A DNA stretch of 62,495 nucleotides from Pseudomonadota bacterium (GTDB lineage: Bacteria; Pseudomonadota; Gammaproteobacteria; Burkholderiales; Rhodocyclaceae). The notes below the pieces were generated by a model. It did no database searches. It worked only from the letters and a program-made list of their open reading frames with translations, and was not told the origin of the DNA. Both the position numbers and the translations under genes were made by a program. Positions 56,999-62,495 of this stretch are shown here, piece by piece (position 1 is the first letter of the stretch; the number at the start of each line of letters is the position of its first letter). The stretch covers positions 1-62,495 of the forward strand of contig JAFEDI010000020.1 of assembly GCA_018241725.1 (NCBI GenBank). The letters run 5' to 3'.

Positions 56999-57018
56999 CC
57001 GGCTCGAAGTCAAGCCGG
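56999..57018. terminator. Stem-loop between convergent genes
   Basis: CCGGCT (56999-57004) with AGCCGG (57013-57018), overlapping the stop of the Gcr gene. No T tract; weak. Confidence 0.35.
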
Positions 57019-59091
57019 CTGCGGCAGGCGCGGCGGCATCAGGAAATCCCGCGGCTGACGACACAGGCGCTGCCACAGGCGCCGCCGCAGCTCCTTCAGG
57101 TCCGATTTCGGCAGGCTGTAGGCGCGTACGGCGGTCAGCAGCGACAACGCGAAACTTACTCCCAGATTAAGCACGAACATCACCGCCACCCCGGCGATCG
57201 CCAGCACCAGCAGACTGGTGCTGGGCTCCACGTCCAGCGCTGACGCAGCGAGGCTGAGGATGCCGGAGTTCAACGTCACGTGGCGCACATCCAGCGGAAG
57301 CCCGAAGAAGCGCCCCAGCACTGGTGTCATGCCGAGCATCAGCCCCAGGGAGATGTTGGTTGCCCAACCCGACATGTTGCGCGACACGATGCCGGCCAAG
57401 CGGATCATCCGCATGCGGCCGAAACGGTGGCCGAGGCGGTGTTCGGCAATCGCCTGTGGCAGACGGTGATAGACCGCCCAGTTATCGACCCAGCCACCGG
57501 CCAGTGCCGCCAGGTACAGGATCCCGCCCGTCAGCGCAGCGTAAAACACCGTGCCGCTGTCCACAGGGCTCAGCGCATGGAAGACGTAATCCGCCTCGGC
57601 ACGGTTCAGGTAGGAATGACCGGTTGCCCATTGCCAGGCCGCATCGAAGGCATAGGCGCCGCAGGCCACCACGATCACGTTGGCGATGGTGGCCGCGAGC
57701 TGTGAGCGGCAGATGCAGGCGGCGTAATCGACGATGCGTTCGAGACGCGCCTCACCCTTGCTGTCGCGGATGATCGCCGCGAAGGTCGCCGCCGTCATCG
57801 CCGGTTGCTTGGTCGCCAGCATCAGGCCGAGCACCTGCAGCAGCAGGAAGCTGAACGCGTAGTTGAGGCCGGAGCCCAACCCCTCCAGGAACAAGGCCAG
57901 GCCGGCACCGGCAATCGCCATCTTCATCGCGGCGGTCGCCACGGTAAGCAGACCACCGCCGGCCGCCGCCAGCCAGATATGGCGATAGTCCTTCGGTGTC
58001 TCGGCAATGTAGTGCTCGCCGGTCTCGCCGGCCCGATCCACGATGCGCCGCTGAAGGCGGCGCAGGTTGCTACGCACCACATGCCACAGGCTGGTGCTCT
58101 CGTGGGCCGCGAAGGCCAGTTGTTGCAGCAGCGCCAGCGCCGGCGCCGGGCTCTCACGCCCGGCCTGCATCACCGCGACGATGGCCTCCAGGCGCGCCAG
58201 GCAGCGCTCCAGCACATCGAGGCCATAGACGATGTCCACGCTGATGCCTTCCGCTTCGAGGCGCGTGGAGATCACATGCATCTCGTCCCGGCAGGCGGCC
58301 ACGCCGGCCGACCAGGCCTCCAGCAGCGGGCCTGGCAGACTCCCACGCTCCCACGCGCATAGCAGGTTCTCGCCGCTGTCGGCCAGGCGCCGGAACGGCG
58401 AGCGGGACACAGGCCCCGGCTGGCTGCGCGTGCGCAACTTCTGGGACAGGCCCTGGCCCTGGATCCGCGCCAGCAGCAGGCGGACGCCGTCGGCCATGGC
58501 ACGCTCCAGCGCCGCCGTCATTTCCGGCTCCTCGACCGGAAACAGGATGTCCACCAGCCGCTGGAAGGACGACGGCTGCAGCCCGCGGACCAGCGTCAGG
58601 TCCCGCGTCCGCGTGTAGCTGCGGCTCATCAGGTGGCCCAGATCGTGGTCGTCCCGCGGCGACGGAATCAGCCGCGTGGTCAGACGGTCGCCGAATTCGG
58701 ACAGGAAGCCCCGGTCGCTGGGGATGCCCACTTCGCCAAACAGGTTGGCCCCGTCGGTCTCGTCGAGCATCTGACAAAGGGCGCGGCGGACTTCCTTTGC
58801 GAGCTCCGGATGAGCGGCCAGCACGTCCATCAGCACCGCGAAACGCTGGGTGGCCGAACCGTGGACGTCGGCCGAGTCGATATAGACGTCGTTCCACAGG
58901 GCACCGCCGGCCAGCCAGCCGTTGAGGGCCCGCCACGCGTCCATACGGTCGGGAAGATCGTCGGCGATCAGCAACGCCTGCAGGTGGATGGCCAGTTTGC
59001 GCAGGTCGCGCGGCCCCTGGCGATGGTTCGGGAGCACCGCATGGACGCATGCCAGCAGCGCATCAATGGAGGGGGTCTGTGTATTCTGCAT
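57010..59091 (-). CDS. Gcr/COG4389 membrane protein (labelled site-specific recombinase)
   Basis: 693 aa. Residues 1-~370 are soluble and helical; ~375-660 hold several hydrophobic stretches (IWLAAAGGGLLTVATAAMKM, NYAFSFLLLQVLGLMLATKQ, VFYAALTGGILYLAALAGGWVDNW, TSLLVLAIAGVAVMFVLNLG). No tyrosine- or serine-recombinase motif is visible, so the historical name site-specific recombinase is doubtful; it is better described as a membrane protein of unknown role. It follows the SIR2-like gene by 70 bp on the same strand and could be the end of that transcript. Confidence 0.82.
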   Translation of the reverse strand: MQNTQTPSIDALLACVHAVLPNHRQGPRDLRKLAIHLQALLIADDLPDRMDAWRALNGWLAGGALWNDVYIDSADVHGSATQRFAVLMDVLAAHPELAKEVRRALCQMLDETDGANLFGEVGIPSDRGFLSEFGDRLTTRLIPSPRDDHDLGHLMSRSYTRTRDLTLVRGLQPSSFQRLVDILFPVEEPEMTAALERAMADGVRLLLARIQGQGLSQKLRTRSQPGPVSRSPFRRLADSGENLLCAWERGSLPGPLLEAWSAGVAACRDEMHVISTRLEAEGISVDIVYGLDVLERCLARLEAIVAVMQAGRESPAPALALLQQLAFAAHESTSLWHVVRSNLRRLQRRIVDRAGETGEHYIAETPKDYRHIWLAAAGGGLLTVATAAMKMAIAGAGLALFLEGLGSGLNYAFSFLLLQVLGLMLATKQPAMTAATFAAIIRDSKGEARLERIVDYAACICRSQLAATIANVIVVACGAYAFDAAWQWATGHSYLNRAEADYVFHALSPVDSGTVFYAALTGGILYLAALAGGWVDNWAVYHRLPQAIAEHRLGHRFGRMRMIRLAGIVSRNMSGWATNISLGLMLGMTPVLGRFFGLPLDVRHVTLNSGILSLAASALDVEPSTSLLVLAIAGVAVMFVLNLGVSFALSLLTAVRAYSLPKSDLKELRRRLWQRLCRQPRDFLMPPRLPQPA

Positions 59092-59161
59092 ATCACGGAT
59101 GGACCCGGTCCGCGATCATTGGTTCGGCAGGACGGCCTGGCGGCCGCCCTGCCCGTACGGA

Positions 59162-60022
59162 TCAGGCGGCGGCTAGCGCCTCGCCGTAGAGGGCCGAGAT
59201 CGGTGCCTCGATGATCTCGATGCCGAGACGCGCGCAGAAGCGGCGCTCCTTGGCAGTGGGCTCCTCGATCATCGCCCAGGCGGCCGGACCGGTCGCACAG
59301 TCGTAGATGATGTCGCTCATCACCATCCGCTCGGTGTCGCGATTGAGACGCAGGCCGAGGAACAGGTAGCGCTTACCCACCCGGCGGGCCTTCAGGAAGG
59401 GCGGAATGGAGAAGCCCCCCATCAGCTCGGTAATGTAATCCACATAGTCGGCATCGGAGGCGATGAAGTCCGGTTGCGGCCACGGCGTACCCATCGGCTT
59501 GAAGAGCACCGGCAGCGAGCTGTCCACGCCTTCGTTGCTGACTTCCGCGTACTTCTCGCCGTCGTGCTGGTACAGCCGGTAGCGGAAGGCCGTACCGGCC
59601 ATGCGGGCGATGCCCACCACCAGGATGTGCGGCGTCTTGGACCACAGGCGCTGCAGCTGAGTGTCCCGGTTGATGTCGATCACGTAATCGGGATTGAAAC
59701 CGGTCAGCCAGCCGTGGAAGGCCGAGTCGGTCCATTCGTCCGAGCCGTAGGTGGCGATCAGGAACTTGTTCACCGCCGCGCGGCCGCGCTTCAGCTCGAC
59801 GTTCATCGCCGCCCGCGGGAATTCGTACATCAGCCGCGGCGCCATCGGCTGGCCGTTGTTCATGGCCAGGATGAGGCTGTTGCTGTCAGCCGGGATCGGC
59901 TTGCCGGAGACCTTGTGGGTGACGTGCGAGAGCGCGCCGGCGCCCAGGTAGGGAACGATGTCGCCGGAAGCGAGGCCCGCATGCAGGCTGGCCAGGAGAT
60001 CGGCAGGAATGGTCTGACTCAT
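59162..60022 (-). CDS. SIR2-like NAD-binding-fold protein in the nif cluster
   Basis: 286 aa. SIR2_2-type fold: IVPYLGAGALSHVT (GAG dinucleotide loop, about 27-29), PDYVIDINRD (111-120; Asn118 and Asp120 in the TTNYD-like position), LFKPMGTP (about 173-180) and YLFLGLRLNRDTERMV (219-234). The usual H-G after the KLHG lysine reads M-G, so the catalytic histidine of SIR2 NADases seems missing. ATG 60022 with CGGAG six bases upstream; the frame opens earlier. Third gene after the sigma-54/NifA promoter of nifQ. Function unknown; candidate NAD or ADP-ribose sensor (inference). Confidence 0.78.
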   Translation of the reverse strand: MSQTIPADLLASLHAGLASGDIVPYLGAGALSHVTHKVSGKPIPADSNSLILAMNNGQPMAPRLMYEFPRAAMNVELKRGRAAVNKFLIATYGSDEWTDSAFHGWLTGFNPDYVIDINRDTQLQRLWSKTPHILVVGIARMAGTAFRYRLYQHDGEKYAEVSNEGVDSSLPVLFKPMGTPWPQPDFIASDADYVDYITELMGGFSIPPFLKARRVGKRYLFLGLRLNRDTERMVMSDIIYDCATGPAAWAMIEEPTAKERRFCARLGIEIIEAPISALYGEALAAA

Positions 60023-60069
60023 GGATGACTCCGTGGGGATGGAGAAAAAGGAGGGCAAACGCGGAAATC

Positions 60070-60099
60070 GCGGCAAGCGCCGCACCGGCCGCTTGCCGC
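60070..60099 (-). other. Intercistronic stem-loop between nifQ and the SIR2-like gene
   Basis: GCGGCAAGCG (60070-60079) pairs perfectly with CGCTTGCCGC (60090-60099), loop of 10. No U tract follows on the minus strand, so it probably stabilises or attenuates the nifQ message rather than ending it. Confidence 0.5.
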
Positions 60100-60133
60100 G
60101 GCCGGCGGACAAACGAGCCGGTGCGTACGGAAA

Positions 60134-60760
60134 TCAGGCATGCAGGGCCATTGCGGGCGGCGCGAAGGCCGCCAGCGGCAGCCCATCCTCGGGACCGAAG
60201 CAGGTCGGGCGGTCATTGCACACCGTGCAGCTCGGCGCCCGGCAGGCATGCACCTCGGCCCGGTCGCAGAGCTGTTTGTAGAAGAATTTCTTCCACTTCA
60301 TGTCGCCGCTGTTGAGGCCGTGGAGGACCGGGAAGTGGCTCTGCAGCACCTCACCGAGCATGTGGCGGGACGGCAGGCCCATGTCCTGCCACAGGTGGTT
60401 GGCCGACATGCAGGCGGTGGACACCGCGCAGGCCAGCCACAGGCTGCGCGTGTCGTCCTCGGCGCGGTGGTCCCACAACAGGGCCAGCAGGTCGGAAAAC
60501 TCGTCGAGGGAATTGGACGGGCGCGGCGCCGACTTCTGCATTGCACGCAGGGCCAGGTGGGTATTCCACTCCAGGTAGGGGAATTCGCTCTCCAGCAGCC
60601 AGGCGAATTCCTCGACGCCCAGGCCGGCGATCGGCGCCGAATATTCGGCCGGGCGCAGCGCGGCGCCGGCGATCACACCGGCCAGCGCGATGGTGGTCAC
60701 GTCGGACGGATCGCCGGCTGCAGCGAGGAGTTGCAGGTTCAGGTTGGCTGGGCTCGCCAT
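60134..60760 (-). CDS. nifQ: NifQ, molybdenum donor for FeMo-cofactor synthesis
   Basis: 208 aa. The C-terminal cysteine set C173-x4-C178-x2-C181-x5-C187 (ACRAPSCTVCNDRPTCFG) is the NifQ signature that holds the Mo-Fe-S cluster passed to NifEN/NifH; MKWKKFFYKQLCDRAEV precedes it as in the family. ATG 60760 has GGAGG five bases upstream. It is transcribed from a sigma-54 promoter with two NifA sites. In this genome it would draw on the same molybdate as the moaA-mobA-moeA pathway. Confidence 0.9.
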   Translation of the reverse strand: MASPANLNLQLLAAAGDPSDVTTIALAGVIAGAALRPAEYSAPIAGLGVEEFAWLLESEFPYLEWNTHLALRAMQKSAPRPSNSLDEFSDLLALLWDHRAEDDTRSLWLACAVSTACMSANHLWQDMGLPSRHMLGEVLQSHFPVLHGLNSGDMKWKKFFYKQLCDRAEVHACRAPSCTVCNDRPTCFGPEDGLPLAAFAPPAMALHA

Positions 60761-60801
60761 GATGGCCTCCGAAAAGATTGACCTCGAATGCCAGTCTTTA
60801 C

Positions 60802-60816
60802 GCAAAGCCCGTGCCA
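60802..60816 (-). promoter_or_regulatory. Sigma-54 promoter of nifQ
   Basis: On the minus strand TGGCAC-GGGCT-TTGC, a perfect -24/-12 element with 10 bp between GG and GC. Start expected near 60791, about 30 nt before the nifQ ATG. Very few such matches are expected by chance in 62 kb. Confidence 0.9.
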
Positions 60817-60876
60817 TACCCGGAATGGTCCCCTCCGCGCCGCCAATGCCGCGCCCGGCGCGGGATTCCGACTGTT

Positions 60877-60892
60877 TGTCGGTCGCCGCACA
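60877..60892. promoter_or_regulatory. NifA upstream activator site, proximal (nifQ)
   Basis: TGT-CGGTCGCCGC-ACA, an exact TGT-N10-ACA site about 70 bp from the -24 element of nifQ. Paired with a second site at 60922. Confidence 0.75.
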
Positions 60893-60921
60893 CAGCCCGC
60901 CGACGCGGGCTTCCCGCCAGT

Positions 60922-60937
60922 TGTCGTATTCGCGACA
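60922..60937. promoter_or_regulatory. NifA upstream activator site, distal (nifQ)
   Basis: TGT-CGTATTCGCG-ACA, an exact TGT-N10-ACA site with a longer dyad TTGTCG/CGACAA, about 115 bp from the -24 element. The two sites are 45 bp apart. Confidence 0.8.
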
Positions 60938-60994
60938 AGCCCCGTACGGAACGATTCGGCAGGGACGCGGGGACGCGCCCCTGAACGCAACCGC

Positions 60995-61834
60995 CTAGAA
61001 GGTGGTGACCTGCACCGAGTAGAGGCCGCCGATCACCGCGAACTCATCCTCGCCCTTCAACATGCCGGGCAGCAGGTGGTTATAGAAGAAGATCTTGGTC
61101 AGCGGGACCTCAGCCTGCAGGATGTAGTCACCGAACTCGCTGGCCCGCTCGCGGGACGTGGAGAAGGAATTGAGATTGTTGAGCAGGTAGATGCTGTCGG
61201 AGCGGCCTCCGCCGGCAATCCGCTCATGGGTATCGAGCTTGTTCACGCCCCGGTACAGCGTCAGGTGCGTGCGGTCCGGGTCCGGCCGGTGCAGCTCGTA
61301 CTGCGTATAGGCATATAAGAGATCGAGCTGCGCCTCAAGGGCGTTGGTGCCATACAGCCCGGCTGACCTCGCCTCCAGGTAGCGCCAGTAAACCTCGCTG
61401 CCGGTGTCGGCCAGCGAGCCCCGGTGGTAGCGCGGCGTCAGCCCGAAGCGCGACTCCACCCAGCCCTTCAGCACTGCCGCCTCGCGACCGTCCGCATCGA
61501 AAGCCCAGCCGCGCACCACACGCTGGTAATTGCTGTTGCCACGCGCCGGCGCGCGGTTGCGGCACGGCGCCAGGCGCCCGAGATCCGGGCTCAGCCCGGC
61601 ATCCTCCAGCGCCTCCAGGCGGAAGCTCACCACCATGTAGTCAACGAAACGCTGGGCCCTCAGAGCTACGTCGGGCAGCGCATCGAGCATGTCGAACAGG
61701 CTGCGGTGCAGTTCCCACACCCCGTCGATGACCAGCGGCGCCGGATTCCGCTGGTAGGTCAGGCCGCCGATGATCGCCGCCGGCAGGTTGCAGCGGTTGA
61801 TCGGCAGGCGCGCGCCCCTCGGCAAGGCCGGCAC
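60995..61834 (-). CDS. draT: NAD+-dinitrogen-reductase ADP-ribosyltransferase DraT
   Basis: 279 aa from GTG 61834, close to the 276-aa R. rubrum enzyme. Transfers ADP-ribose from NAD to NifH Arg101 to switch nitrogenase off. ART motifs: LYRG with Arg195, the NNLNSFSTSRERASEFGDY block, and the E-x-E catalytic pair near GEDEFAVIGG (E262/E264). The frame continues upstream to ATG 61909, but GGGGAGGAAC sits 3-9 bases before GTG 61834 and the extension overlaps a NifA site, so GTG is preferred. No draG occurs in the window. Confidence 0.9.
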   Translation of the reverse strand: MPALPRGARLPINRCNLPAAIIGGLTYQRNPAPLVIDGVWELHRSLFDMLDALPDVALRAQRFVDYMVVSFRLEALEDAGLSPDLGRLAPCRNRAPARGNSNYQRVVRGWAFDADGREAAVLKGWVESRFGLTPRYHRGSLADTGSEVYWRYLEARSAGLYGTNALEAQLDLLYAYTQYELHRPDPDRTHLTLYRGVNKLDTHERIAGGGRSDSIYLLNNLNSFSTSRERASEFGDYILQAEVPLTKIFFYNHLLPGMLKGEDEFAVIGGLYSVQVTTF

Positions 61835-61985
61835 GCGTTCCTCCCCTTTCACTCCGACGACATCCTCCAAGCTGTGAAACTCCTTACAAAGCGTGGGGTC
61901 TTGTCGCATCCCACACGCGACAAGAGCACCCTACAAAAACAATTTAATCAAATAAATTCAATAACTTGAATAAACAAAGAGAACA
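61835..61985. promoter_or_regulatory. Divergent draT-nifH regulatory region
   Basis: Short stretch between draT and the nifH promoter. It holds one exact NifA site (61873-61888, next entry), a TGTCGC/GCGACA inverted repeat (61902-61922) and a very A/T-rich run (61930-61982) suited to IHF-induced bending, though the IHF consensus is matched only approximately. No clear promoter for draT was identified. Confidence 0.55.
61873..61888. promoter_or_regulatory. NifA upstream activator site (nifH)
   Basis: TGT-GAAACTCCTT-ACA, exact TGT-N10-ACA, about 105 bp before the nifH -24 element, the usual distance. It also lies within 40 bp of the draT start, so NifA binding could affect draT. Confidence 0.75.
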
Positions 61986-62000
61986 TGGCACAGCGCTTGC
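61986..62000 (+). promoter_or_regulatory. Sigma-54 promoter of nifH
   Basis: TGGCAC-AGCGC-TTGC, near-perfect -24/-12 element with the GG and GC 10 bp apart. Start expected about 62011, with AAGGAGA (62049-62055) before the ATG. Confidence 0.93.
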
Positions 62001-62025
62001 GATTAGGTAATCACACGAGGCATAG

Positions 62026-62495
<470 letters not shown>

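Follow-up and report, generated by a model that had tools for sequence, protein, structure and literature searches.

A gene encoding a SIR2-fold protein, probably of the pnfA family (59162..60022, minus strand; 286 aa, 31.6 kDa), lies on the divergent side of nifH in the window, by which the whole analysed stretch of 62,495 nucleotides is meant, with draT and nifQ located between both genes. The finding is real, and much of the biology of this gene is probably in print already under another name. The reading favoured here, held with roughly even confidence, is that of an accessory gene driven by NifA and sigma-54, whose non-catalytic product binds a ligand and a partner and keeps nitrogenase active under oxygen or nitrate respiration. 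It draws on the gene itself, its promoter sites, its linkage, the predicted fold and the loss of the catalytic His in sequence comparisons, and also on the NifA/RpoN dependence, residual nitrogenase activity and unchanged nifH transcription published for Pseudomonas stutzeri PnfA (accessible passages of PMC2820453); orthology with PnfA, the ligand, the partner and a coupling to DraT are its presumed components. The additions made here are the predicted whole-protein SIR2 fold, the likely His loss, the linkage to a draT locus in which the gene has NifA sites apart from draT, and its retention in genomes that lack draT. The available passages of the open-licence literature on SIR2, sirtuins or PnfA together with nitrogenase or draT mention neither the fold nor the loss of the His, nor the promoter pattern seen across relatives.

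The SIR2-like gene and its neighbours in the window

On the minus strand, reading outward from nifH, the gene order is draT (60995..61909; PF07357, E 5.9e-95), nifQ (60134..60760; PF04891, E 5.5e-47), the SIR2-like gene and a PF10136 gene (57010-59091) that begins 70 bp past it. The nifH gene (62062..62495, plus strand) is an ORF truncated by the window end, which was named from its sequence and served as the NifH query. The start of the SIR2-like gene was set at the ATG at 60022, the mechanically called ORF (59162-60112) being a longer TTG-start version. Its product, P0001, passes the Pfam cut-off for SIR2_2 (PF13289, E 1e-6, 29.3 bits against a curated cut-off of 24.5), which bears out the SIR2-like assignment made in the first-pass annotation; the comparison of four window proteins with NCBIfam, the draT and nifQ products included, gave no match for any of them. 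The closest genus-named relative among the matches listed is Zoogloea sp. LCSB751 (98% identity). Codon differences between the gene and its counterparts in five relatives were 0 to 33 non-synonymous and 36 to 91 synonymous, and the gene is under strong purifying selection.

The sigma-54 promoter that the first-pass annotation had placed before nifQ was confirmed, with the -24/-12 element TGGCACGGGCTTTGC at 60802-60816 of the minus strand matching at 10/10 fixed positions. This putative promoter of nifQ, and presumably also of the SIR2-like gene, is one of only two perfect -24/-12 matches in the window, the other being located before nifH (61986..62000, plus strand). Among relatives, four loci (L093-L096) keep the element before nifQ in perfect form, and in L097 it departs at a single position. 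The two TGT-N10-ACA sites reported together with it are also exact NifA-type sites, located at 60877..60892 (with a counterpart in L094 and L095) and, in palindromic form, at 60922..60937 (with a counterpart in L093-L096), and a third exact copy at 61873..61888 would be, from its position, an upstream site for nifH. This motif was found 4 times in the whole window for 6.4 expected and is not significant by itself, so that the weight of these sites lies in their position and conservation.

No NifA/sigma-54 sites were found directly before the SIR2-like gene in the window and five close relatives; equivalent elements stand before nifQ, within the draT-nifQ gap. The nifQ-SIR2 intergenic region (60023..60133, minus strand) yielded no sigma-54 or NifA site and shows a strong predicted hairpin (z -3.1) without a T run, which on comparison by eye is similar in L093 and altered in the other four relatives. 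The earlier statement that a stem-loop and no evident promoter separate both genes agrees with this analysis, in which no sigma-70-like promoters and no terminator-like sites were found in 59000-62060, an absence that is weak evidence because few were expected from shuffled sequences (0.5 and 1.9, respectively). The simplest history would be an insertion of nifQ between the SIR2-like gene and its promoter. NifA and sigma-54 would turn on the SIR2-like gene at the same time as nitrogenase, using the nifQ promoter in this genome and mostly the gene's own sites elsewhere, the signs of this control being sequence sites, those of nifQ in the window and those of the gene itself in relatives. Downstream, the PF10136 gene keeps its place after the SIR2-like gene in L093-L097, no terminator-like site was found between them, and the nifQ transcript could read on into it.

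The nifQ-SIR2 pair, taken as a meaningful unit in the first-pass annotation, did not hold up beyond this lineage: nifQ is located between draT and the SIR2-like gene in 5 of the 80 named loci analysed (best 80 of 580), only in Zoogloea and near relatives, and a functional pair was rejected on this distribution. Another Zoogloea-titled locus (L124) has no nifQ between these genes. The draT-nifQ-SIR2 order is also present in a Rhodocyclales MAG (L097:223-3055), whose copy forms a branch external to the other three copies of the Zoogloea type and may help in dating the nifQ move.

Carriers, promoter pattern and linkage to draT

Matches to P0001 were found in 82 of 199 genomes of the same family and were divided at 150 bits into 66 strong and 16 weak ones, 15 of the latter being of a distant type (25-30% identity) and one (G158) a decayed strong-type copy. 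The draT gene was found in 63 of the 66 strong carriers and in 20 of the 133 other family genomes (Fisher 4e-30), nifQ in 64 strong carriers and a nifH match in 58; nifH counts are lower bounds, nifH having been unmatched in the window's own genome (G000) though its start lies at the window end. Of the 66 strong carriers, 53 have draT upstream on the same contig and strand, 27 of them within 400 bp, and the three strong carriers lacking draT (G065, G140, G170) also gave no nifH match. Among the 15 distant-type genomes nifH was found in all and draT in 12, and 8 of the 83 family draT genomes carry neither SIR2 type. In G158, nifH is present, no draT match was found and the SIR2-like gene survives beside nifH just as decayed fragments, one of which contains stops (L084:4490-4870); draT and the SIR2-like gene were possibly lost jointly. 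The tally left out second match pieces of SIR2 (G059, G149, G158, G030) and DRAT (G079, G098, G176, G050), as well as a 37-residue DRAT fragment (G035) and the sub-cut-off nifH of G197, giving 83 instead of 84 draT genomes and 83 instead of 84 nifH genomes.

In the named genome collection at least 580 relatives of P0001 were confirmed, and the loci analysed (the best 80 of 580) include members of Rhodocyclaceae, Zoogloeaceae, Gallionellaceae, Chromatiaceae, Sedimenticolaceae and Oceanospirillaceae. Upstream draT on the same strand was observed in 41 of these 80 loci; no draT was present in the available stretch of the other 39, 12 of which have little upstream sequence, and in 10 of the 80 the SIR2-like gene is opposite nifH with no draT between. 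A genome-wide draT search carried out for 24 of the 39 loci, several of them from partial MAGs, found draT in 17 genomes and not in 7, so that the gene is not confined to genomes with a DRAT match. Five of the ten nifH-opposite genomes have no draT genome-wide, and eight of the ten nifH-opposite genes belong to one supported gammaproteobacterial group in the tree. In the phylum sample (398 genomes, with up to six candidates scored per genome), either SIR2 type was found in 17 genomes, nifH in 38 and both in 13; of the genomes carrying both nifH and draT (n=25), 4 had a SIR2-like gene of either type and in 21 none was found. All 25 nifH genomes that had given no SIR2 match, these 21 among them, were searched again with P0001 as the only query, which yielded one partial match (G315, E 2.8e-4). 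Three genomes of this sample (G262, G266, G274) have the strong type without draT. The SIR2-like gene is thus strongly associated with nif and, in the family and neighbouring groups, commonly with draT, but depends strictly on neither of them.

The promoter census covered the 400 bases that precede strong-type genes (125 distinct sequences), allowing up to two mismatches in the -24/-12 element. TGT-N10-ACA was present in 102, the -24/-12 element in 74, either in 113 and both in proper order in 54. A NifA site at an upstream distance of 80 to 160 bases from the start was present in 82. As loci opposite nifH could borrow nifH sites, the count was repeated without them (n=113), giving 91 with a NifA site, 69 with a -24/-12 element, 102 with either and 49 with both. 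In 5280 random windows of the same loci the frequencies were 9.6% for the NifA site, 14% for -24/-12 and 1.9% for both. The draT upstream set was limited to loci with all 400 bases available, an almost complete match and a distinct sequence (46 of 94 draT loci), and yielded a NifA site in 3, a -24/-12 element in 6 and both in 1; 28 upstream regions of hemerythrin genes gave 2, 2 and 1. The counts are far higher for the SIR2-like gene than for draT, and therefore the sites belong to the former and not to draT.

These distributions bear on the possibility that the protein serves specifically to regulate the DraT/DraG switch, in which case it would bind NAD+ or ADP-ribosylated NifH and restrain or trigger DraT. 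Such a role is considered unlikely, although draT is upstream in 41 of the 80 named loci and 53 of the 66 strong family carriers, accompanies the gene in all 58 strong carriers that gave a nifH match (against 20 of the 25 nifH genomes lacking the strong type), and a draG relative is found in 36 of the 80 named loci (best 80 of 580); the decay of the gene in draT-less G158 would also fit. The 7 draT-less genomes among the 24 tested (five of them among the ten nifH-opposite ones) and G262, G266 and G274, some of all these being partial MAGs, argue against it, as do the phenotype of the pnfA mutant (PMC2820453) in P. stutzeri, which has no DraT/DraG, and the induction under nitrogen fixation of the neighbour of draT, but not of draT, in strain BH72 (PMC8467165). 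Since no SIR2-like gene was found in 21 of the 25 genomes of the phylum sample that carry both nifH and draT, any coupling to DraT would be at most partial. Of the role beside DraT proposed in the first-pass annotation, the frequent linkage in related diazotrophs stands (draT in 63 of 66 strong family carriers, upstream in 41 of the best 80 of 580), and a DraT-specific role is weakened by the draT-less carriers and the gene-less draT genomes; co-occurrence in Rhodocyclaceae was found for draT and for nifQ (63 and 64 of 66), with adjacency to nifQ being rare.

Gene maps were built from greedy ORF picks, and some draT copies found by the draT search are absent from them. Two further genes recur in these maps. 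One encodes a protein of about 185 aa with no Pfam match (L166:8856-9410; cluster c38, 33 loci), immediately follows the SIR2-like gene in 10 of the loci mapped and has NifA and sigma-54 sites upstream in 10 of 29 copies. The other encodes a 77 aa protein with several cysteines and no Pfam match (L134:8879-9109; cluster c60, 16 members) and occupies the same position in 12 mapped loci, several of them from gammaproteobacterial symbionts.

Predicted fold and putative active site

The whole P0001 protein was modelled as a SIR2 NADase fold, and this predicted structure and the PF13289 score both place it in the SIR2_2 fold family; no relatives of solved structure were found by sequence with P0001 as the sole query. 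A residue census was carried out on 121 distinct strong-type sequences, leaving out L001-L032. The catalytic Asn of the TTNxD/TQNxD motif (Asn118) is present in 121 of 121, as are Glu76, Arg81, Asp116, Arg119, Asp120 and Lys175, and Asp192 is present in 120. His was found at the catalytic place in none of the 121 sequences, and P0001 has Met there in an alignment of modest quality, with the KPxG of the SIR2-like family aligned with the K-x-H-G of SIR2 NADases. The GAGxS nucleotide loop and the GYS serine are not conserved either: P0001 reads GAGAL, variable in relatives, and has Arg225 at the Ser position. In the distant type the catalytic Asn is replaced by Trp in 20 of 25 sequences, none of 26 loci has both the catalytic His and Asn, and six still carry PHG at the His place.

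The His comparison was based on the hhalign/ThsA alignments and these six PHG loci, a joint MAFFT alignment that included four true SIR2_2 proteins being unreliable in its C-terminal half and not used for this purpose. The His-to-Met pairing was obtained by hhalign with A2 (E 3e-4, probability 38%) and A4 (E 8e-4, 25%); the strong-type alignment A3 alone (E 0.75) did not extend to the His, and the ThsA stretch holding the pairing scored 0.3 bits. The catalytic His is likely lost, and the modest alignment of His with Met counts against the favoured reading.

An active enzyme with a rearranged active site (NADase, deacetylase or ADP-ribose hydrolase) would be compatible with the seven fully conserved residues, the almost invariant Asp192 and the modelled NADase fold, and a deacetylase was suggested by the Zymomonas mobilis authors for ZMO1821; with no His in 121 sequences, the GAGAL loop, Arg225 at the GYS serine and Trp for Asn in the distant type, such an enzyme is quite improbable. 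In the favoured reading of a non-catalytic accessory protein, the SIR2-type NADase fold would have lost its catalytic His and had its pocket remodelled, and the product would most likely bind a ligand and a partner rather than consume NAD or deacetylate proteins. NAD(H), ADP-ribose or another nucleotide may be the ligand. From the anti-phage SIR2-domain NADases ThsA, KomC and DSR2, P0001 differs in its replaced catalytic His and GYS serine and in its nif context. A defence role was rejected, P0001 having no PADLOC family and most mapped loci having a nif context; a few members of A4 gave weak ThsA, LmuA and ZorC matches. Two more SIR2_2 matches are located inside larger proteins of the window's genome (G000:C128:103641-104030 and G000:C115:111402-111923), and at least one of these proteins (C128, L226) retains the TTN-D and K-L-H-G motifs.

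Relation to PnfA and to other nif-linked relatives

According to the accessible passages of the 2010 study, the P. stutzeri A1501 gene PST1325 was named pnfA, is divergent from nifH, is activated by NifA and sigma-54 and encodes a 31.7 kDa product; homologs were listed in P. azotifigens, Azotobacter vinelandii, Azoarcus BH72, Dechloromonas aromatica and Halorhodospira halophila, a second subfamily was described at 20% identity, and PnfA was reported in diazotrophs only (PMC2820453). PST_1325 is labelled as a SIR2 family protein in a 2024 table (PMC11332353). The SIR2-like gene resembles pnfA in its predicted NifA/sigma-54 control, nifHDK linkage, divergence, size (31.7 kDa for PnfA, 31.6 kDa for P0001) and SIR2 label, and its position, promoter, size and label, together with the published homolog list, suggest that both genes are orthologous. 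It differs in that draT and nifQ separate it from nifH, in the apparent sharing of the nifQ promoter and in the presence of draT, A1501 having neither DraT nor DraG.

The non-polar pnfA mutant retained 23% of nitrogenase activity at 0.5% oxygen with normal nifH transcription, was wild-type-like under argon and lost fixation with nitrate (PMC2820453, same passages), so the absence of any described role assumed in the first-pass annotation is contradicted. In the open-licence literature found, as far as its available passages go, a requirement for full microaerobic nitrogenase activity is published for A1501 only. The 2010 authors proposed electron transfer or oxygen protection from a short UspA/ETF-like similarity, with no SIR2 fold given in those passages (PMC2820453). 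That the product is such an electron-transfer or oxygen-protection protein for nitrogenase is highly improbable, the whole protein being modelled as a SIR2 fold with no sign of a redox cofactor; the oxygen- and nitrate-dependent phenotype would fit it, as would the hemerythrin relative found in 32 of the 80 named loci (best 80 of 580), encoded immediately downstream of the SIR2-like gene in 18 mapped loci. The non-catalytic product favoured here would maintain nitrogenase activity post-synthesis during oxygen or nitrate respiration; in bacteria with draT, where the gene is often in the draT locus and sometimes by a hemerythrin gene, it may also temper the switch-off triggered by redox or energy status.

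In Azoarcus olearius BH72, RpoN and NifA sites are listed for azo0536 (PMC3916325), and under nitrogen fixation azo0536 and dcrH1 were induced and draT was not, a second promoter being suspected by the authors (PMC8467165, accessible passages of both); no passage on azo0536 was found in the available main text of the BH72 Tn-Seq paper. The location of azo0536 directly after draT, its RpoN/NifA sites, its induction and the dcrH1 gene that follows recall the loci studied here, with the difference that the published BH72 order has no nifQ between draT and azo0536. The name dcrH1 is presumably of the hemerythrin type. From its position, azo0536 appears to be the BH72 PnfA homolog, and the NifA/sigma-54 sites located between both genes in relatives are offered as an explanation for its induction without that of draT.

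The distant type belongs to the same fold family as the strong type (hhalign E 1.9e-39, A1 against A2), with about 25-31% identity to P0001, and follows nifB-fdx-nifZ-nifT in Rhizobium etli p42d (RHE_RS30545) and a Mesorhizobium plasmid. Position and annotation suggest that three published proteins are of this type: Rcc03262 of Rhodobacter capsulatus, not detected in the proteome of the nifA mutant (PMC6925177), ZMO1821, induced in the draT-less host Z. mobilis and suggested to be a deacetylase (PMC8594446, PMC8600466), and msi351 of M. loti, whose disruption gave no symbiotic phenotype, the mutant being fully effective (PMC3538637, accessible passages in all cases). Fold family, nif linkage and, in R. 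capsulatus, NifA dependence are shared with the strong type; the low identity, the nifB-fdx-nifZ-nifT context in R. etli and Mesorhizobium and the Asn mostly replaced by Trp are not. The msi351 result counts against the favoured reading and would suit a passenger gene in nif clusters that matters little to most of its hosts, as would the 8 of 83 family draT genomes without a homolog; this is the most improbable of the readings considered, given the strong purifying selection, the conserved promoter sites of the gene itself and the 23% activity of the A1501 mutant.

Most likely, the gene encodes a non-catalytic, ligand-binding accessory protein or regulator of nitrogenase acting under oxygen or nitrate respiration. 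A broader version, in which PnfA proteins are silenced sirtuins that sense NAD+/NADH or ADP-ribose and gate nitrogenase, and DraT wherever it occurs, by respiratory state across Pseudomonadota, is rather doubtful. A gene described in 2010 in one strain, with a strong nitrogenase phenotype, now has apparently hundreds of relatives (at least 580), those examined being mostly in or near nif clusters and often in the draT locus, with the predicted fold of an NAD-consuming enzyme and probably without its catalytic His. The likely loss of this His argues against the deacetylase idea for Zymomonas, and PnfA would be reframed from a vague electron-transfer or oxygen-protection factor into a testable ligand-binding regulator.
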